Source of the DNA: Polyangium sp. 15x6
GTDB lineage: Bacteria > Myxococcota_A > Polyangia > Polyangiales > Polyangiaceae
Length of the DNA: 64,000 nt
Direction of reading: 5' to 3'
Assembly (NCBI RefSeq): GCF_029960785.1
Contig: NZ_JASBQE010000011.1
Span: forward strand, 1 to 64,000
The notes below the pieces were generated by a model. That model searched no databases, was not told the origin of the DNA, and saw nothing but the letters and a program-made list of their open reading frames with translations. Each line of letters opens with the position of its first letter. Position 1 is the stretch's first letter. Below are positions 25,667 to 30,674 of the stretch, in pieces. Made by a program: the position numbers and the translations under genes.

Positions 25667-26460
25667 GATGCATTTTCTCCTTGGATTCGAGGGTCGGTCT
25701 CCGTCGACTCGTCTCGCTCTCCGCGCGATCACTCCTTTGCTTCGATCTGGAAAATGGCGTGGGGGGCCTGCCCACGACGCACCCCCTTCACTCTATCGTC
25801 AATGGCCCCTGCGCGCAGAAGAAGCACGGCGCGGCCCGCAGAGCAAGGCCGGTGCCACGAGCGCGATCACGCGCGTTCTTGCTGCAATGCTGTCCGCACG
25901 GGCGGAGCTGAATCGAGGGGCCGATCAGGCATTACGCAAAATCGAATCCACGAATCGAACGAGCGTGTGGGATTCGTTTGTTTAGATGGATCAATTCGCG
26001 GATGAACTACCACGAACCGCGCCGAGGGCCGCGCCGCGCACGGGCACCTGGTGCGACGCTCCCAGGCCCGGACGACGGCTCGAACGTCCCGGCGTCGAGC
26101 CCCGGCCAGGATGTCCCACGGACGGACGCTCGCAGCTGCGAGCCACGCGCGCGCCGAGCATCGGGCATCCGTCGTGGCCGACCCCTCCGACGATCGCGCA
26201 ATTCGTTGCGCGATCCGCGCAGCACGGCATGCACGCCTCGGGCAAACGAACCCGAGGGCTCGGGCCTTCACCTGCTGCATGCTCCCGGATCCACCTCGCC
26301 CACATTTCGCCGCGAACCTGCATCCATCCGGATCCACCTCGCCCCGGTTTTCCCCCGCGTTCGCCCCGAAAATCGACCCCTCCCCCGCGGGCACGTCGCC
26401 TGCAATCCGAGCTTCTCCGGCAACCGAGCCGATTTCCTGCTCGCGCCGCTGGAGGAACTC
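25667..26460. promoter_or_regulatory. Divergent intergenic region with inverted repeat
   Basis: A 794-bp gap between the peroxidase gene and the GNAT synthase gene. It holds no credible gene; open frames here lack ribosome-binding sites. An AT-richer patch at about 25930-25990 includes an inverted repeat CGAATCC (25943-25949) and GGATTCG (25970-25976), with a further CGAATC between the arms. This patch is a plausible promoter or operator for one of the divergent genes. The stretch 26240-26450 is C-rich and probably the untranslated leader of the downstream gene. Confidence 0.35.
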
Positions 26461-27264
26461 ATGTCGGACATCCGCTGCATCATCGCCGAAACCCAGAGAC
26501 ACCTCGACCACGCCGTCCGCGTCCGTTTCGAGGTGTTCGCCCGCGAGCTCGGCTACCTCGATACGAAAGAGCACGCCGTCCCCCGCGAGCTCGATTGTTT
26601 CGATACCCTCGCCACGACCCTCCACCTCATCGCCTACGACGGCGACATCGCCGTTGGCACCCTCCGCCTCCTCCTGCCGAACCCCGAGGTCGCCGCCACG
26701 AACGGCACCTCCTTCGGCCTCTCCGTCGAATCGCAGTTCGACCTCGCGCCCCTCGCCGCCGCCGGCCTCCGCCTCGCCGAGACCTCGCGATATTGCGTCC
26801 TCGCCACCCATAGACACTCCATGGCCGTCGCCGAGCTCCACGCCGCCGCCGTCCACCTGAGCCGCGTCCTCGGCGTCGGCCACTGGATTGCGACCGCGAA
26901 TACCGAGACCGACGGCATCGAGGACGCCCGCCTCATTCAGCAGGTCGCCCGCGAGCGCGGGTTCGTCCGAAACGACCTTTCCCTCGCCCCGCGCCTCCCT
27001 TCGCCCGCCCCCGCCTCGCCGAAGCGCCCGTTCTTCGACGACCACGCGCGCTCCGAGGCCACGCGCTCCCCCGCGCGATCCCGGCTCCCGCGCACGCTCG
27101 ACATGTACGCCCGCCGCATGCGCGCCCGCTTCGTGGGCCCTCCGGTCTACGATACCCGCTTTCGCATGTGCGCCCTGCCGCTCCTCGCGTCGGTCGCCGA
27201 GCAGCGCACCGTGCAGCGCGCGAAGCCCCCCGTCTTCCCCCATCCGGGCTCGATTGCCGCCTGA
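26461..27264 (+). CDS. GNAT-fold acyl amino acid / autoinducer-synthase-like enzyme
   Basis: A 267-residue cytoplasmic protein; the first ~165 residues resemble the GNAT-fold group that includes N-acyl amino acid synthases (FeeM type) and LuxI acyl-homoserine-lactone synthases. The early VRFEVFARELGYLD segment fits the family's RyxvFveElGy motif. DGDIAVGTLRLLL is the central strand pair and LAETSRYCVL the ExSR-type motif. Such enzymes join an acyl chain from ACP or CoA to an amino group. The last ~100 residues are Pro/Arg/Ala-rich. The ATG at 26461 follows GGAGGAACTC; the frame open upstream is not coding. A haem-oxygenase-like gene starts 19 bp downstream, so the two probably form an operon that makes a small molecule. 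Product unknown. Confidence 0.65.
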   Translation: MSDIRCIIAETQRHLDHAVRVRFEVFARELGYLDTKEHAVPRELDCFDTLATTLHLIAYDGDIAVGTLRLLLPNPEVAATNGTSFGLSVESQFDLAPLAAAGLRLAETSRYCVLATHRHSMAVAELHAAAVHLSRVLGVGHWIATANTETDGIEDARLIQQVARERGFVRNDLSLAPRLPSPAPASPKRPFFDDHARSEATRSPARSRLPRTLDMYARRMRARFVGPPVYDTRFRMCALPLLASVAEQRTVQRAKPPVFPHPGSIAA

Positions 27265-27283
27265 ACAAAAGGAGCCCGTCCTC

Positions 27284-27976
27284 ATGAACTCCCTCGTGAA
27301 AACTCTCGATACCACCGTCGCGGACCTTCTTTCGGTCCTCGACACACACCCCGCGGCCCGCCGCCTGCTCGCCGGCGACCTCGACACCGACGAATACGCG
27401 GCCTTTCTTCGACAAACGTATCTTTATGTCCAGCAAACCCGCCCCTTGCTCCGCCGCGCCGGCGAGCGGCTCTCGCGCGCGGGCAAGGCCCCCGACCTCG
27501 CGCGGCTCTTCCTGCAAAAAGCCGACGAGGAGCAAGGGCACGACCTCTGGGTTCTCGAGGACCTCGCCGCGATCGGCCGCCCCGAGACCCCGGCCGCGCC
27601 GCCCTCGCCTTGCCCGGCCGTCGATGCCTACATCGCCTGGAACCGGTTTCAGGTCGAGGCCGGCTCGCCCCTCGCCTTCCTCGGCACGGCCTACGTCCTC
27701 GAGGCCCTCTCCCAGGCCCGCGCCGGCACCACCGCGGCGCATCTCGTCGCGCGGCGACGGATCCCCGGCATCGAGCGCGCCGTCCGCTTCCTCTCCGGGC
27801 ACGCCGACGCCGACGAAGAGCACACCGAGGTGCTGCGAGGCCTCTTCGAGCGCATCGAGTCCGCCGAGGATCGCCGCGCCGTCACGCTCTCGGCCGCGGT
27901 GACCGCGGCGCTTTATCCGGGGATGTTCGCGGGGAGAGAGACGACCTTCAACGCTGCCGCCACGCTGTGTGAATGA
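27284..27976 (+). CDS. Haem-oxygenase-like diiron (iron-containing redox) enzyme
   Basis: A 230-residue all-helical protein. The start ATG at 27284 is preceded by AAAAGGAGCCCG. Two metal-binding-type motifs are in place: KADEEQGHDLW (ExxH) in the middle and DADEEHTEVL (DxxH) near residue 190. A further acidic helix lies at VLEALSQA. This fits the haem-oxygenase-like diiron oxidase/oxygenase (HORA) superfamily, which includes UndA-type fatty-acid decarboxylases and several natural-product N-oxygenases. Next to an acyl-transferring synthase, it may tailor the acyl product. The last 29 bp overlap the convergent LuxR-type regulator gene. Confidence 0.7.
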   Translation: MNSLVKTLDTTVADLLSVLDTHPAARRLLAGDLDTDEYAAFLRQTYLYVQQTRPLLRRAGERLSRAGKAPDLARLFLQKADEEQGHDLWVLEDLAAIGRPETPAAPPSPCPAVDAYIAWNRFQVEAGSPLAFLGTAYVLEALSQARAGTTAAHLVARRRIPGIERAVRFLSGHADADEEHTEVLRGLFERIESAEDRRAVTLSAAVTAALYPGMFAGRETTFNAAATLCE

Positions 27977-29015
27977 GCGCGGCGCGGTTCGGGATGCCGA
28001 GCTTGTCGAAGACGTGCGAGAAATGCTTCTTCACCGTGAGCTCCGTGATGCCGAGCTCGGTGGCGATGAGCGCGTTGTCCCAGCATACGCGCTCCGCCAC
28101 CTTGATCTCCGCGGTCGAAAGGGACTTCAGCCACGGAAGGGGGATGGGCACGAGCTTCGGGACCTCTTCGAGCAGCATCACGAAGGACGCGCCGTCGAGC
28201 CCCGGGAGCTTCTGGATCGAGACCTTCAGCTCGGCGAGCGCGCCGGTCCGCCAGTAAGCCTCGGGGAGCATGTGGGGGTTCTTCACGAAGGACGCGAGGC
28301 GCGCGGCGAGAAGCTCGGGCAGCCCGTCCGGGCCGAGCTCGGTCGGCTTGAACCAGGCGCAGAGCATCTTCTCCGCGCTCGCCGTCCGCGCGATCTCCGC
28401 GCCCGACGCGCTGAACACGATCGCCTCGTGCCCCATCCCGGCGAGCACCGCGTCGAGCAGCGACGCGCGCTTCGCCATCGCCCCGAAGAGCCGGCAGTTC
28501 TTCACCGCGTTCGTGAAATGCCGGGAGAGCTTCTGCAGGATCATGCGCTCGTGATCCGAGAATGGGATCCGCTTGTCCCGGTAGAGGATGAGCCCCCCGT
28601 GCCACGAAGGATCGTCGCGGAGCATGACGGCCATCACGTGTTCGAGACGCATCCCGATGTCGCGGCAGTGGTTGTAGAGGTAGCTCCGCTCCATCGCCGC
28701 GCGCGGGAGCATCTCGGTGTCGCGCAAGACCTCGTTCGGACGCTCGGCGACGGCGATCCGGACGAAGTCGTGCGGGACCATCTCCGCGTATCCCTGGAAA
28801 AACCTCTCGGGCATCTCGACGACGGCCCAGTCGTAGACGGCGTGCCCCTCGGGCCGGCTCACGCAGAGCGCCCCGTGATCCGCGGACACGAGCTGCGAGA
28901 GCAGGCCGTAGCCGCGGCCGAGCACCTCGTGCAGATCGAGCGATCCTCCGAGCTCGGCGACGAGGTCCAGCATGAGGCCGTGCTCATGCTCCGTGAGATC
29001 CGAGGGCCCCCTCAT
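27948..29015 (-). CDS. LuxR-type regulator with GAF-like sensor domain
   Basis: A 355-residue regulator. The N-terminal ~180 residues look like a GAF-type sensory domain (ELGGSLDLHEVLGRGYGLLSQ; IPFSDHERMILQKLSRHFTNAV). A middle segment shows a second sensory-type fold. The last ~60 residues are a LuxR/NarL-type helix-turn-helix: LSTAEIKVAERV, then NALIATELGITELTVKKHFSHVFDKLGI. No receiver domain is visible, so it is not a two-component regulator; control probably comes from a ligand. It converges on the GNAT/diiron gene pair with a 29-bp 3' overlap, and may respond to their product. The start ATG is at 29015. Confidence 0.82.
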   Translation of the reverse strand: MRGPSDLTEHEHGLMLDLVAELGGSLDLHEVLGRGYGLLSQLVSADHGALCVSRPEGHAVYDWAVVEMPERFFQGYAEMVPHDFVRIAVAERPNEVLRDTEMLPRAAMERSYLYNHCRDIGMRLEHVMAVMLRDDPSWHGGLILYRDKRIPFSDHERMILQKLSRHFTNAVKNCRLFGAMAKRASLLDAVLAGMGHEAIVFSASGAEIARTASAEKMLCAWFKPTELGPDGLPELLAARLASFVKNPHMLPEAYWRTGALAELKVSIQKLPGLDGASFVMLLEEVPKLVPIPLPWLKSLSTAEIKVAERVCWDNALIATELGITELTVKKHFSHVFDKLGIPNRAALIHTAWRQR

Positions 29016-29048
29016 GGGCGTTCATGATGAACCCGAACTGACCGCGGT

Positions 29049-30596
29049 TCAACGCCCGCCTGCACCCCTGCGCTTCGATCCCGTACCGTTCCGGGGGACC
29101 AACCCTTCGGGCCACTGGCGCGCATCCGGCGACGCGAGCGGATGTTTTCGATACCATTCATAAAGGCCCTGCCCCGACGCGGGCGCCTCGCCTTGCGCCG
29201 GGGCGGGGCCCGCCACCGGCGCAGGTGCGGCCCCGCCCTCGGATCCGCCTCCCTCGTCGCTCGTTCGGAGCCCGTGCCTTCGCATCACCCGCTGGACGAA
29301 CGCCCGTCCCACGCCGGCGATCTTGGCCGCCTGGGACACGTTGTACCCCGTCTCCCGCAACGCGCGCTCCACATAGGCCCGCTTGTAAGCACTCTCCAGG
29401 TGCGCGAGCCCCACGTGCAGAGGCACCTCGAGGTTCACGACCGGAAGCACCGCCGAGGGCGGCTCCTCCGTCTCCTCGGCGGCCCAGGGCGGCTCGTCGA
29501 GCCCGAGCGAGAGCATCATCTCCACCTTGTTCCGGAGCTCCCGCACGTTGCCCGGCCACGGCCGCGGGTGCGCCTTCATCCGCTCGAGCACCTCGTTCGG
29601 CAGGAGCGGCGGCGCGTCCGTCCGCCCTTGCCATTCCTTCTCGAAATGCCGCACGAGCAGCGGGATGTCGTCGAGCCGCTCCCGCAGCGGCGGCAGCCGC
29701 ACGGGCACGACGGCCAGCCGGTAATAGAGATCCTCGCGGAACCTGCCTCGCTCGACCTCGACCGCCAGCGATCGGTTCGTCGCGGCCACGATCCGCACGT
29801 CGGCCCGGCGCGGCTCGTTCTCTCCGATCCGGGTGATCGTGCGCGTCTCCAGAGCCCGGAGCAGCTTCGGCTGGAGCTCGAGCGGCAGCTCGCCGATCTC
29901 GTCGAGGAAGAGCGTCCCGCCGTGCGCCGCCTCGAACCTCCCCACGCGGTTCTCGGTCGCGCCCGTGAAGCAGCCGCGCTTGTGCCCGAAGAGCTCGCTC
30001 TCCAGCACGCCCGCGCTCACCGACGAGCAATCGAAGACCATGAACGGGCCACTCGCCCGCGCGCTCTCGGCGTGAATCGCCGCGGCCGCGAGCTCCTTGC
30101 CCGTCCCGGTCTCCCCCTCGACGAGCACGGTCATCGCGTTGCTCCGCGCGATCTTTTCGAGCAGCGCGAAGAGCCCCCGCATCGGCACGCTCGCGCCGAC
30201 GAGGCGGCCGAAGCGGGTGCGGGACGAGAGCGGCAGCGCCACCACGTCGCGCATCATCTGCAGCCGCAGCGCCGAGGCGCCGAGCCCGATCGTCGAGTCG
30301 GGCCGGGCGTAGGCGTCGCGGATCCGCACGCCGTCGACGGTCGTGCCATTGCGGCTGCTCGTGTCGAGCACGCGCAGGAGGTCACCTTCGATCCGGAGAA
30401 GCAGGTGGTGCCGGCTGACGGTCGGATCCTCGAGAACGAGATCACAATCCTTCCCGCTCCCGACCCGCACCTCCGGCCCGAGCACCTCGGTGACGACGCC
30501 TGCCATGGGCCCTCGGCTCACCTCGACGCGAATCTTGTGCGTCCGGAGCTCGAGCCCCCGATCGGCTTCCATGGTCCAGGTATTCAAGTCCTTCAT
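29049..30596 (-). CDS. FHA-domain sigma-54-dependent transcription activator
   Basis: A 515-residue enhancer-binding protein. An FHA phosphothreonine-binding domain lies at residues ~30-105 (VRVGSGKDCDLVLEDPTVSR; SSRNGTTVDG). The AAA+ domain begins with Walker A GETGTGKE (161-168). The sigma-54 contact loop reads GCFTGA (208-213), with Cys in place of Ala in the GAFTGA consensus. Walker B is GGTLFLDEIGELP. A Fis-type HTH (YNVSQAAKIAGVGRAFVQRVM) follows near 460-480, and the tail is Ala/Pro-rich. FHA-EBPs are characteristic of myxobacteria and are activated by Ser/Thr kinases. The ATG at 30596 was chosen; the open frame extends to 30671. Three copies of an AAAGTG(G)TAC motif lie upstream, and a weak sigma-70-like promoter (TTGTAC, 16 bp, TACAAA) precedes the start. 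Confidence 0.88.
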   Translation of the reverse strand: MKDLNTWTMEADRGLELRTHKIRVEVSRGPMAGVVTEVLGPEVRVGSGKDCDLVLEDPTVSRHHLLLRIEGDLLRVLDTSSRNGTTVDGVRIRDAYARPDSTIGLGASALRLQMMRDVVALPLSSRTRFGRLVGASVPMRGLFALLEKIARSNAMTVLVEGETGTGKELAAAAIHAESARASGPFMVFDCSSVSAGVLESELFGHKRGCFTGATENRVGRFEAAHGGTLFLDEIGELPLELQPKLLRALETRTITRIGENEPRRADVRIVAATNRSLAVEVERGRFREDLYYRLAVVPVRLPPLRERLDDIPLLVRHFEKEWQGRTDAPPLLPNEVLERMKAHPRPWPGNVRELRNKVEMMLSLGLDEPPWAAEETEEPPSAVLPVVNLEVPLHVGLAHLESAYKRAYVERALRETGYNVSQAAKIAGVGRAFVQRVMRRHGLRTSDEGGGSEGGAAPAPVAGPAPAQGEAPASGQGLYEWYRKHPLASPDARQWPEGLVPRNGTGSKRRGAGGR

Positions 30597-30674
30597 GGGG
30601 CCATTTTGTATCCGGGCCGTCAAAGTGTACAAGAATAGGGCGATCCGGCGTCCGTCTTCGTTGCACGGCAACTT

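Follow-up and report, generated by a model that had tools for sequence, protein, structure and literature searches.

The described systems closest to the gene set reported here are the LuxI-LuxR quorum-sensing circuits, the fee cluster with the acyltransferase FeeM, the mycobacterial tyz pathway, and the superfamily of haem-oxygenase-like dimetal oxidases (HDOs), which includes UndA, CADD, BesC, SznF, and FlcD. The myxobacterium Archangium gephyra possesses AgpI, a functional solo acyl-homoserine lactone (AHL) synthase without a receptor, which makes AHLs in E. coli (PMC7862692), homologs of autoinducer-I (AI-I) synthases and of LuxR have been reported in a survey of Myxococcaceae (PMC7694542), and a FeeM-fold acyltransferase and an O2-using oxidase of the mycobacterial tyz pathway make acyl-oxazolones (PMC10404671). 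The HDO superfamily has a motif of three histidines and three carboxylates, and its characterized members are mostly tied to fatty- or amino-acid-type substrates; none of the terms acyltransferase, N-acyl, and quorum occurs in the main text of the review describing them (PMC13108848). Here, we analyzed a three-gene set located in a 64,000-nucleotide stretch of DNA (the window) of Polyangium sp. 15x6 (NZ_JASBQE010000011.1, positions 1 to 64,000), which is part of a contig (C22) in a 13.4-Mb genome. The set encodes a FeeM/LuxI-fold acyltransferase of the GNAT type, which is a putative N-acyl amide synthase, an HDO, and a regulator with a LuxR-type helix-turn-helix (HTH) domain. The three genes very probably form a functional unit, and we estimate at about 50% the probability that the enzyme pair makes an oxidized N-acyl amide signal, not an AHL, that is sensed by the linked regulator.

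The set resembles the quorum-sensing circuits of bacteria and appears to be an undescribed relative of them. With LuxI-LuxR circuits it shares the synthase fold, a partly receptor-like sensor, adjacent and often convergent genes, and a dyad before the synthase gene; unlike them, it falls below the family cut-offs on both sides, lacks key tryptophan residues, has a regulator with a PAS-like domain in its middle, and includes an oxidase in every locus. AgpI is likewise a LuxI-fold synthase of a myxobacterium, but it is described without a cognate receptor (PMC7862692), whereas the present set has a receptor-like partner and its synthase is no canonical LuxI. The fee cluster is similar in the fold of the acyltransferase (VIA-align Z 17.8) and in the Pfam FeeM match, which lies above the cut-off, and differs in that the present synthase has an HDO and a LuxR-HTH regulator as its partners. 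In tyzA-tyzBC, a FeeM-fold N-acyltransferase also stands beside an O2-using oxidase acting on an N-acyl amino acid (PMC10404671), but that oxidase is a flavoenzyme accompanied by a ThiF-like cyclase, in place of the HDO and the linked regulator found here. The present HDO shows the PF14518 match and the three-histidine/three-carboxylate motif of its superfamily, and is set apart by its two partners, a FeeM/LuxI-fold enzyme and a regulator with a LuxR-type HTH. A literature search, beyond whose reach most subscription journals lay, yielded no description of this gene set.

The synthase gene (encoding P0001) occupies positions 26461-27264 of the forward strand (ATG at 26461, 267 amino acids) and is followed after a 19-bp spacer by the HDO gene at 27284-27976 on the same strand (ATG at 27284, 230 amino acids). 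The regulator gene (encoding P0003) lies on the reverse strand at 27948-29015 (ATG at 29015, stop at 27948, 355 amino acids), convergent with the HDO gene and overlapping its 3' end by 29 bp (27948-27976). The initial annotation had given this order, spacer, and overlap exactly, and the coordinates of the open reading frames (ORFs) agree. It had also proposed that the triple be tested for co-inheritance in relatives. Among 144 genomes of the same taxonomic order, the synthase was found in 10 (12 places), the oxidase in 22, and the regulator in 9 (11 places). In each of the six Polyangium genomes the three genes are adjacent and in identical order, as they are on contig C6 of genome G133. G133 and G098 each hold the complete set twice, as diverged copies; in G133 the copy on contig C1 is a rearranged triple, and in G098 the second triple shows identities of 27% for the synthase, 31% for the oxidase, and 37% for the regulator. 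A scan of a species-genome collection with one peptide pattern confirmed 17 loci (three in Polyangium, nine in Corallococcus, two in Sorangium cellulosum, and one each in a Myxococcaceae, a Byssovorax, and a Myxococcales metagenome-assembled genome (MAG)), so that our statements on conservation cover Myxococcota. In these, the oxidase adjoins the synthase in 17/17 and the regulator is present in 16/17; the locus without it belongs to the Byssovorax MAG and is on a contig that starts 618 bp ahead of the oxidase gene.

After removal of duplicates (collection loci L072, L073, L074, and L084 coincide with the contigs of G107, G115, G116, and G108 and were counted once), 23 distinct loci remained; the oxidase adjoins the synthase in all 23, and in 22 the regulator is no more than 2.3 kb away. 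The absence of co-conservation in relatives, which the initial annotation had named as a refutation, was thus not observed. Nineteen of these 22 loci show the synthase-oxidase pair facing the regulator, two the order oxidase-synthase-regulator, and one the order regulator-oxidase-synthase on one strand. The recurrence of the gene set is more than chance, because it is found in other genomes at synthase identities as low as ~26-28%. Nine weak synthase matches belonging to another Acetyltransf_5 branch (G059, G041, G031, G427, G448, G391, G414, G421, and G108 C150) were excluded from the 23 loci; none has the regulator within a flank of ~1.5 kb, and one (G421, locus L098) has a weak HORA match ~1.3 kb away (E 1.5e-5). 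Across the 22 complete loci, the pairwise protein distances of the three proteins agree (r 0.979, 0.966, and 0.953), with 0/1000 label shuffles as high, shuffles that still carry the effect of the species tree. In a sample of 377 genomes of the phylum, five of seven regulator matches are located at triples. Nothing was found in 29 genomes of another myxobacterial order, a search made without a positive control and therefore of little weight, and a plasmid search with the synthase returned a single weak record from Rhizobium (E 4e-4).

The synthase matches the Pfam families Acetyltransf_5 (3.9e-13) and FeeM (PF21926; 4.5e-9, 36.7 bits against a cut-off of 27) above their cut-offs and Autoind_synth (PF00765; E 0.075, 13 bits against 24) below its cut-off. 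At E <=1, FeeM was matched by all 15 synthase family members scanned and Autoind_synth by 6/15, with a best value of 5.5e-4. In comparisons of overall fold, FeeM (2g0b) was the top match of the structure model (mean predicted local distance difference test (pLDDT) 87.7) in both Foldseek and VIA-align, the latter superposing 171 residues at 2.5 A, followed by the CoA-dependent AHL synthases RpaI/BjaI (Z 16), with TofI at 15.0, LasI at 14.3, and generic GNATs at 15.8 and lower. Compared at the profile level with three genuine LuxI proteins, the synthase aligned in the active-site blocks (E 6e-8). Nine residues are invariant in these three proteins (R24, F28, W34, E43, D45, D48, R70, E100, and R103). 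Among 24 synthase sequences, in which one locus is counted twice (as L063 and L084), R22, R69, and E107 are invariant, E43, D48, and R110 have one exception each, F26 is phenylalanine in 21 and tyrosine in 3, and D45 is retained in 17; the position of LuxI W34 is occupied by methionine, tyrosine, or leucine in all 24 and by tryptophan in none. The synthase is thus built on the FeeM/LuxI plan and yet, by sequence, is no LuxI.

The HDO matches Haem_oxygenas_2 (PF14518) at 1.1e-16 (61.6 bits against a cut-off of 28.9), and the closest solved chain is 3dde (5.7e-9), titled as a domain of unknown function with a haem-oxygenase-like fold. CADD was matched at the profile level (7e-4), and alignment of the ligand positions to it predicts E83 (or E82), H86, E140, H173, D177, and H180 as metal ligands. 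All six positions, three histidines and three carboxylates, are present in 23/24 sequences, the sole exception being the diverged G098 copy (L064), which has serine at E140. Both enzyme assignments of the initial annotation, a FeeM/LuxI-like fold and a haem-oxygenase-like diiron enzyme, are therefore supported, the former at the level of overall fold and the latter by its metal-ligand set. An N-acyl amino acid as substrate would agree with the substrate types of the characterized HDOs. Oxidase relatives were also observed on plasmids of Citrobacter, Alteromonas, Pseudoalteromonas, Variovorax, and Novosphingobium (L101-L105), where all five loci opened, out of 23 matches, contain a conserved run of 'thermostable hemolysin', AMP-binding, HORA, SDR, and TPR/hypothetical genes, the AMP-binding and HORA parts being fused in Novosphingobium. 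The 'thermostable hemolysin' was PF12261 in all three cases scanned, and the run is possibly a biosynthetic operon concealed by a toxin name. Kinship of the present synthase to the 'thermostable hemolysin' beside these HORA genes of Pseudomonadota was rejected on the basis of a profile comparison (probability 0.2, E 0.3).

The regulator consists of a GAF/autoinducer-binding-like sensor domain (residues ~8-180), a PAS-like middle domain (~183-290, assigned from secondary structure), and a GerE/LuxR HTH domain (299-351). Its Pfam matches comprise GerE (PF00196, 1.6e-8) and GAF (0.022, below the cut-off), with no receiver domain among them. GerE is matched at E <=1 by 12/12 regulator family members, one of which (L085) scores slightly below the cut-off (22.8 against 23.5). 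The Polyangium regulators are two residues short in the GerE domain before W313 (RVC--WDNALIA) relative to the other aligned genera, and the G133 C1 copy is missing the PAS-like middle domain. Structure prediction gave a mean pLDDT of 85.7 and a predicted template modelling score (pTM) of 0.64. With VIA-align, the sensor domain superposed best on AHL receptors (CepR2 Z 16.2 over 158 residues at 2.5 A, LasR 15.4, with other AHL receptors also on top), and GAF domains ranked after them (14.3 for 3k2n, and 13.8). In profile comparison against eight LuxR ligand domains, 0/100 column shuffles reached 32, the highest scoring 20.3. Five residues are invariant in these eight domains (SdiA P64, W67, Y71, D80, and G118), and the regulators retain counterparts of the proline (P69, 23/23), the tyrosine (Y76, 23/23), and the aspartate (D83, 21/23). 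In TraR, W57, Y61, and D70 are involved in AHL contacts, the aspartate touching the amide N-H and the tryptophan the lactone carbonyl. Retention of the aspartate together with loss of the tryptophan, described below, would suit a non-lactone N-acyl amide as ligand.

Candidate regulatory elements were found before the synthase gene. A dyad of 16-17 bp, TTGCGYGATC(N)RCGCAR, lies at 26206-26222 on the forward strand and is a candidate operator; it is located 246-255 bp before the synthase start in 6/6 Polyangium genomes, two of its forms are perfect 16-bp palindromes, and G088 and G116 differ by a change in one arm that is mirrored in the other (TTGCGTGATCACGCAA and TTGCGCGATCGCGCAA, respectively). 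The central GATC is reminiscent of lux- and tra-boxes. Genome-wide, the pattern occurs in one to five places per Polyangium genome, and in G098 solely at this locus, with 0 occurrences of the backwards control; among 10 inspected of the 11 places outside the locus, only one ORF pair is common between genomes. Downstream of the dyad, a 21-bp direct repeat is present on the forward strand at 26275-26295 (-186) and 26318-26338 (-143). In Polyangium, the copies stand at about -184 to -186 and -141 to -143, 43-44 bp apart; both are exact in 5/6 genomes, G116 having one exact copy and one with a changed base, and beyond the locus one more copy was found in the six genomes (in G088). The linked regulator is the obvious candidate binder of these elements. 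The initial annotation had instead suggested a regulator site near 25940-25980, but the inverted repeat at that place was rejected as an operator, as it has no counterpart in 5/5 Polyangium relatives. A perfect 10-bp inverted repeat with a 4-base TTCG loop at 26192-26215 overlaps the dyad, and its exact form is missing from the five aligned relatives.

From the observed gene structure, co-inheritance, predicted folds, metal-ligand residues, and conserved cis elements, we infer the substrates, product, reaction order, ligand recognition, and DNA binding as follows. The FeeM/LuxI-fold enzyme would join an acyl thioester, carried by coenzyme A (CoA) or an acyl carrier protein (ACP), to an amine, probably an amino acid, yielding an N-acyl amide, which the HDO, using its dimetal centre and O2, would then oxidize, desaturate, or decarboxylate. 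The regulator would bind the mature compound with its GAF/autoinducer-binding-like domain and use its LuxR-type HTH to control the synthase promoter at the dyad, the direct repeats, or both. More tentatively, and at somewhat less than even odds, the set may represent a new class of signalling circuit in Myxococcota, in which an N-acyl amide must be oxidized by an HDO before it is sensed by a GAF-derived, autoinducer-domain-like LuxR regulator, the latter being a living GAF-LuxR intermediate.

Several results weigh against a dedicated signalling circuit. When the whole regulator model was searched with Foldseek, bacteriophytochromes came first and RhlR only fifth, and Autoind_bind (PF03472) was not matched by P0003 at E 1. 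The sensor-domain profile scores 31.8 against GAF domains (a control of 27 GAF domains from the same genome, 27 of 30 fetched out of 107 GAF matches) and 32.6 against LuxR ligand domains, which score 15.0 against GAF profiles. Among 12 regulator members, only the G133 C1 copy matches Autoind_bind (E 0.0016, 18.4 bits, below the cut-off of 23, positions 6-148 of 149), and it also matches GAF above the cut-off (1.1e-4). Because the profile scores are nearly equal and the G133 C1 copy matches both families, the sensor domain lies between the GAF and LuxR autoinducer-binding families. The description of P0003 as a GAF-LuxR regulator lacking a receiver agrees with the HTH match and with the Pfam matches, among which there is no receiver; the sensor resembles an autoinducer-binding domain about as much as a GAF domain. 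At the position of the AHL-receptor tryptophan (SdiA W67), leucine is found in 12, phenylalanine in 10, and tryptophan in 1 of 23 regulators, and that of the LuxR glycine (SdiA G118) is glutamate in 22/23. With one representative per clade (6), the correlations of protein distances fall to 0.90, 0.54, and 0.46, with 44, 182, and 467 of 5000 shuffles as high, so that agreement with the regulator is moderate. The regulator also occurs outside the set, since the homologs in G122 (on an 8.3-kb contig, with no synthase or oxidase match in that genome) and G150 (with neither gene in 18 kb) lack these neighbours. Finally, when <=3 mismatches are allowed, the window contains 4 instances of the dyad against an expectation of 6.3, which is no excess. 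In Corallococcus and Sorangium, the dyad was not found before the synthase genes (10-11 of 16 positions at best), nor were the direct repeats found in these loci. The two regulator matches outside triples in the phylum sample are G150 and a partial match in G389; the latter, a distant homolog (L176, G389 C172, 4839-8988), matches only the middle and HTH parts and lies ~0.8 kb from a long ORF with a HORA-like C-terminal part, with no synthase match on the 10.4-kb contig.

Among the alternatives, the main one is that the genes belong to a specialized-metabolite or lipid pathway producing an oxidized N-acyl amino acid, such as an antibiotic, a surfactant, or a protective lipid, while the regulator senses another input, for example a precursor, the redox state, or a prey cue. 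We regard this as a serious competitor, although less probable than a signal read by the linked regulator. It draws on the mycobacterial tyz genes, in which a FeeM-fold acyltransferase and an oxidase yield acyl-oxazolones (PMC10404671), on the nonribosomal peptide synthetase (NRPS)-like gene a few kb away in Corallococcus, and on the sensor domain itself, which a plain GAF also fits; however, the sensor superposes best on AHL receptors in VIA-align, and the regulator remains with the pair despite rearrangements of gene order. A membrane-lipid or PEP-CTERM/exosortase-related acyltransferase (of the ornithine-lipid OlsB or TIGR03694 type) that came to lie beside an HDO by accident is quite improbable: the best NCBIfam matches of the synthase are indeed OlsB-type and exosortase-associated acyltransferases, but both are far below their cut-offs (46.7 against 350 and 41.5 bits against 111.95, respectively), and an adjacency of synthase and HDO in 23/23 loci is not chance.

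It is equally hard to credit a diverged yet ordinary AHL circuit with an extra tailoring enzyme. Its appeal lies in a synthase fold that matches AHL synthases (Z 14-16), in the retention of most LuxI active-site residues, and in the receptor-like sensor domain, but the Autoind_synth and Autoind_bind cut-offs are missed, the LuxI W34 position is tyrosine, methionine, or leucine in 24/24, and the receptor tryptophan position is leucine or phenylalanine in 22/23. Neither Autoind_bind nor Autoind_synth had any match in this genome, which contains 107 GAF matches, and among 60 genomes in the family one had Autoind_bind and one had Autoind_synth above the cut-off. The remark of the initial annotation that myxobacteria are not known for standard LuxI-LuxR circuits needs qualification, as AgpI is a functional AHL synthase in one myxobacterium (PMC7862692). 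An Autoind_synth match above the cut-off (L108, G108 C150:6480-6896; 29.3 bits against 24) belongs to the Byssovorax-like MAG, apart from its synthase-oxidase pair.

Myxobacteria are social predators whose small-molecule communication is poorly understood. A compact and conserved set of synthase, oxidase, and regulator genes under a defined promoter offers a testable candidate in culturable Polyangium, Corallococcus, and Sorangium. If an oxidized N-acyl amide signal is indeed made and sensed, a signalling role would be added to the HDO superfamily, and the finding would bear on the origin of LuxR receptors from GAF-type sensors.

In the surroundings of the set, no sigma-70-like promoter was found in 25733-29100, no Rfam family in 25700-29100, and, apart from the HTH of the regulator, no PHROG match at E 0.01. 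The regulator gene is immediately preceded, on the same (reverse) strand, by a gene for an FHA/sigma-54-type activator (29049-30671), which occupies this place in G133 C6 and in every one of the six Polyangium genomes. It is no member of the core set, being missing from most distant loci, although the two genes may be co-transcribed and are possible operon partners. In nine Corallococcus loci and a Myxococcaceae MAG (L075-L083 and L086), where ORFs were named by eye from the sequence, without a family scan, 10/10 have an NRPS-like ORF a few kb past the regulator and 9/10 a hydrolase-like ORF.

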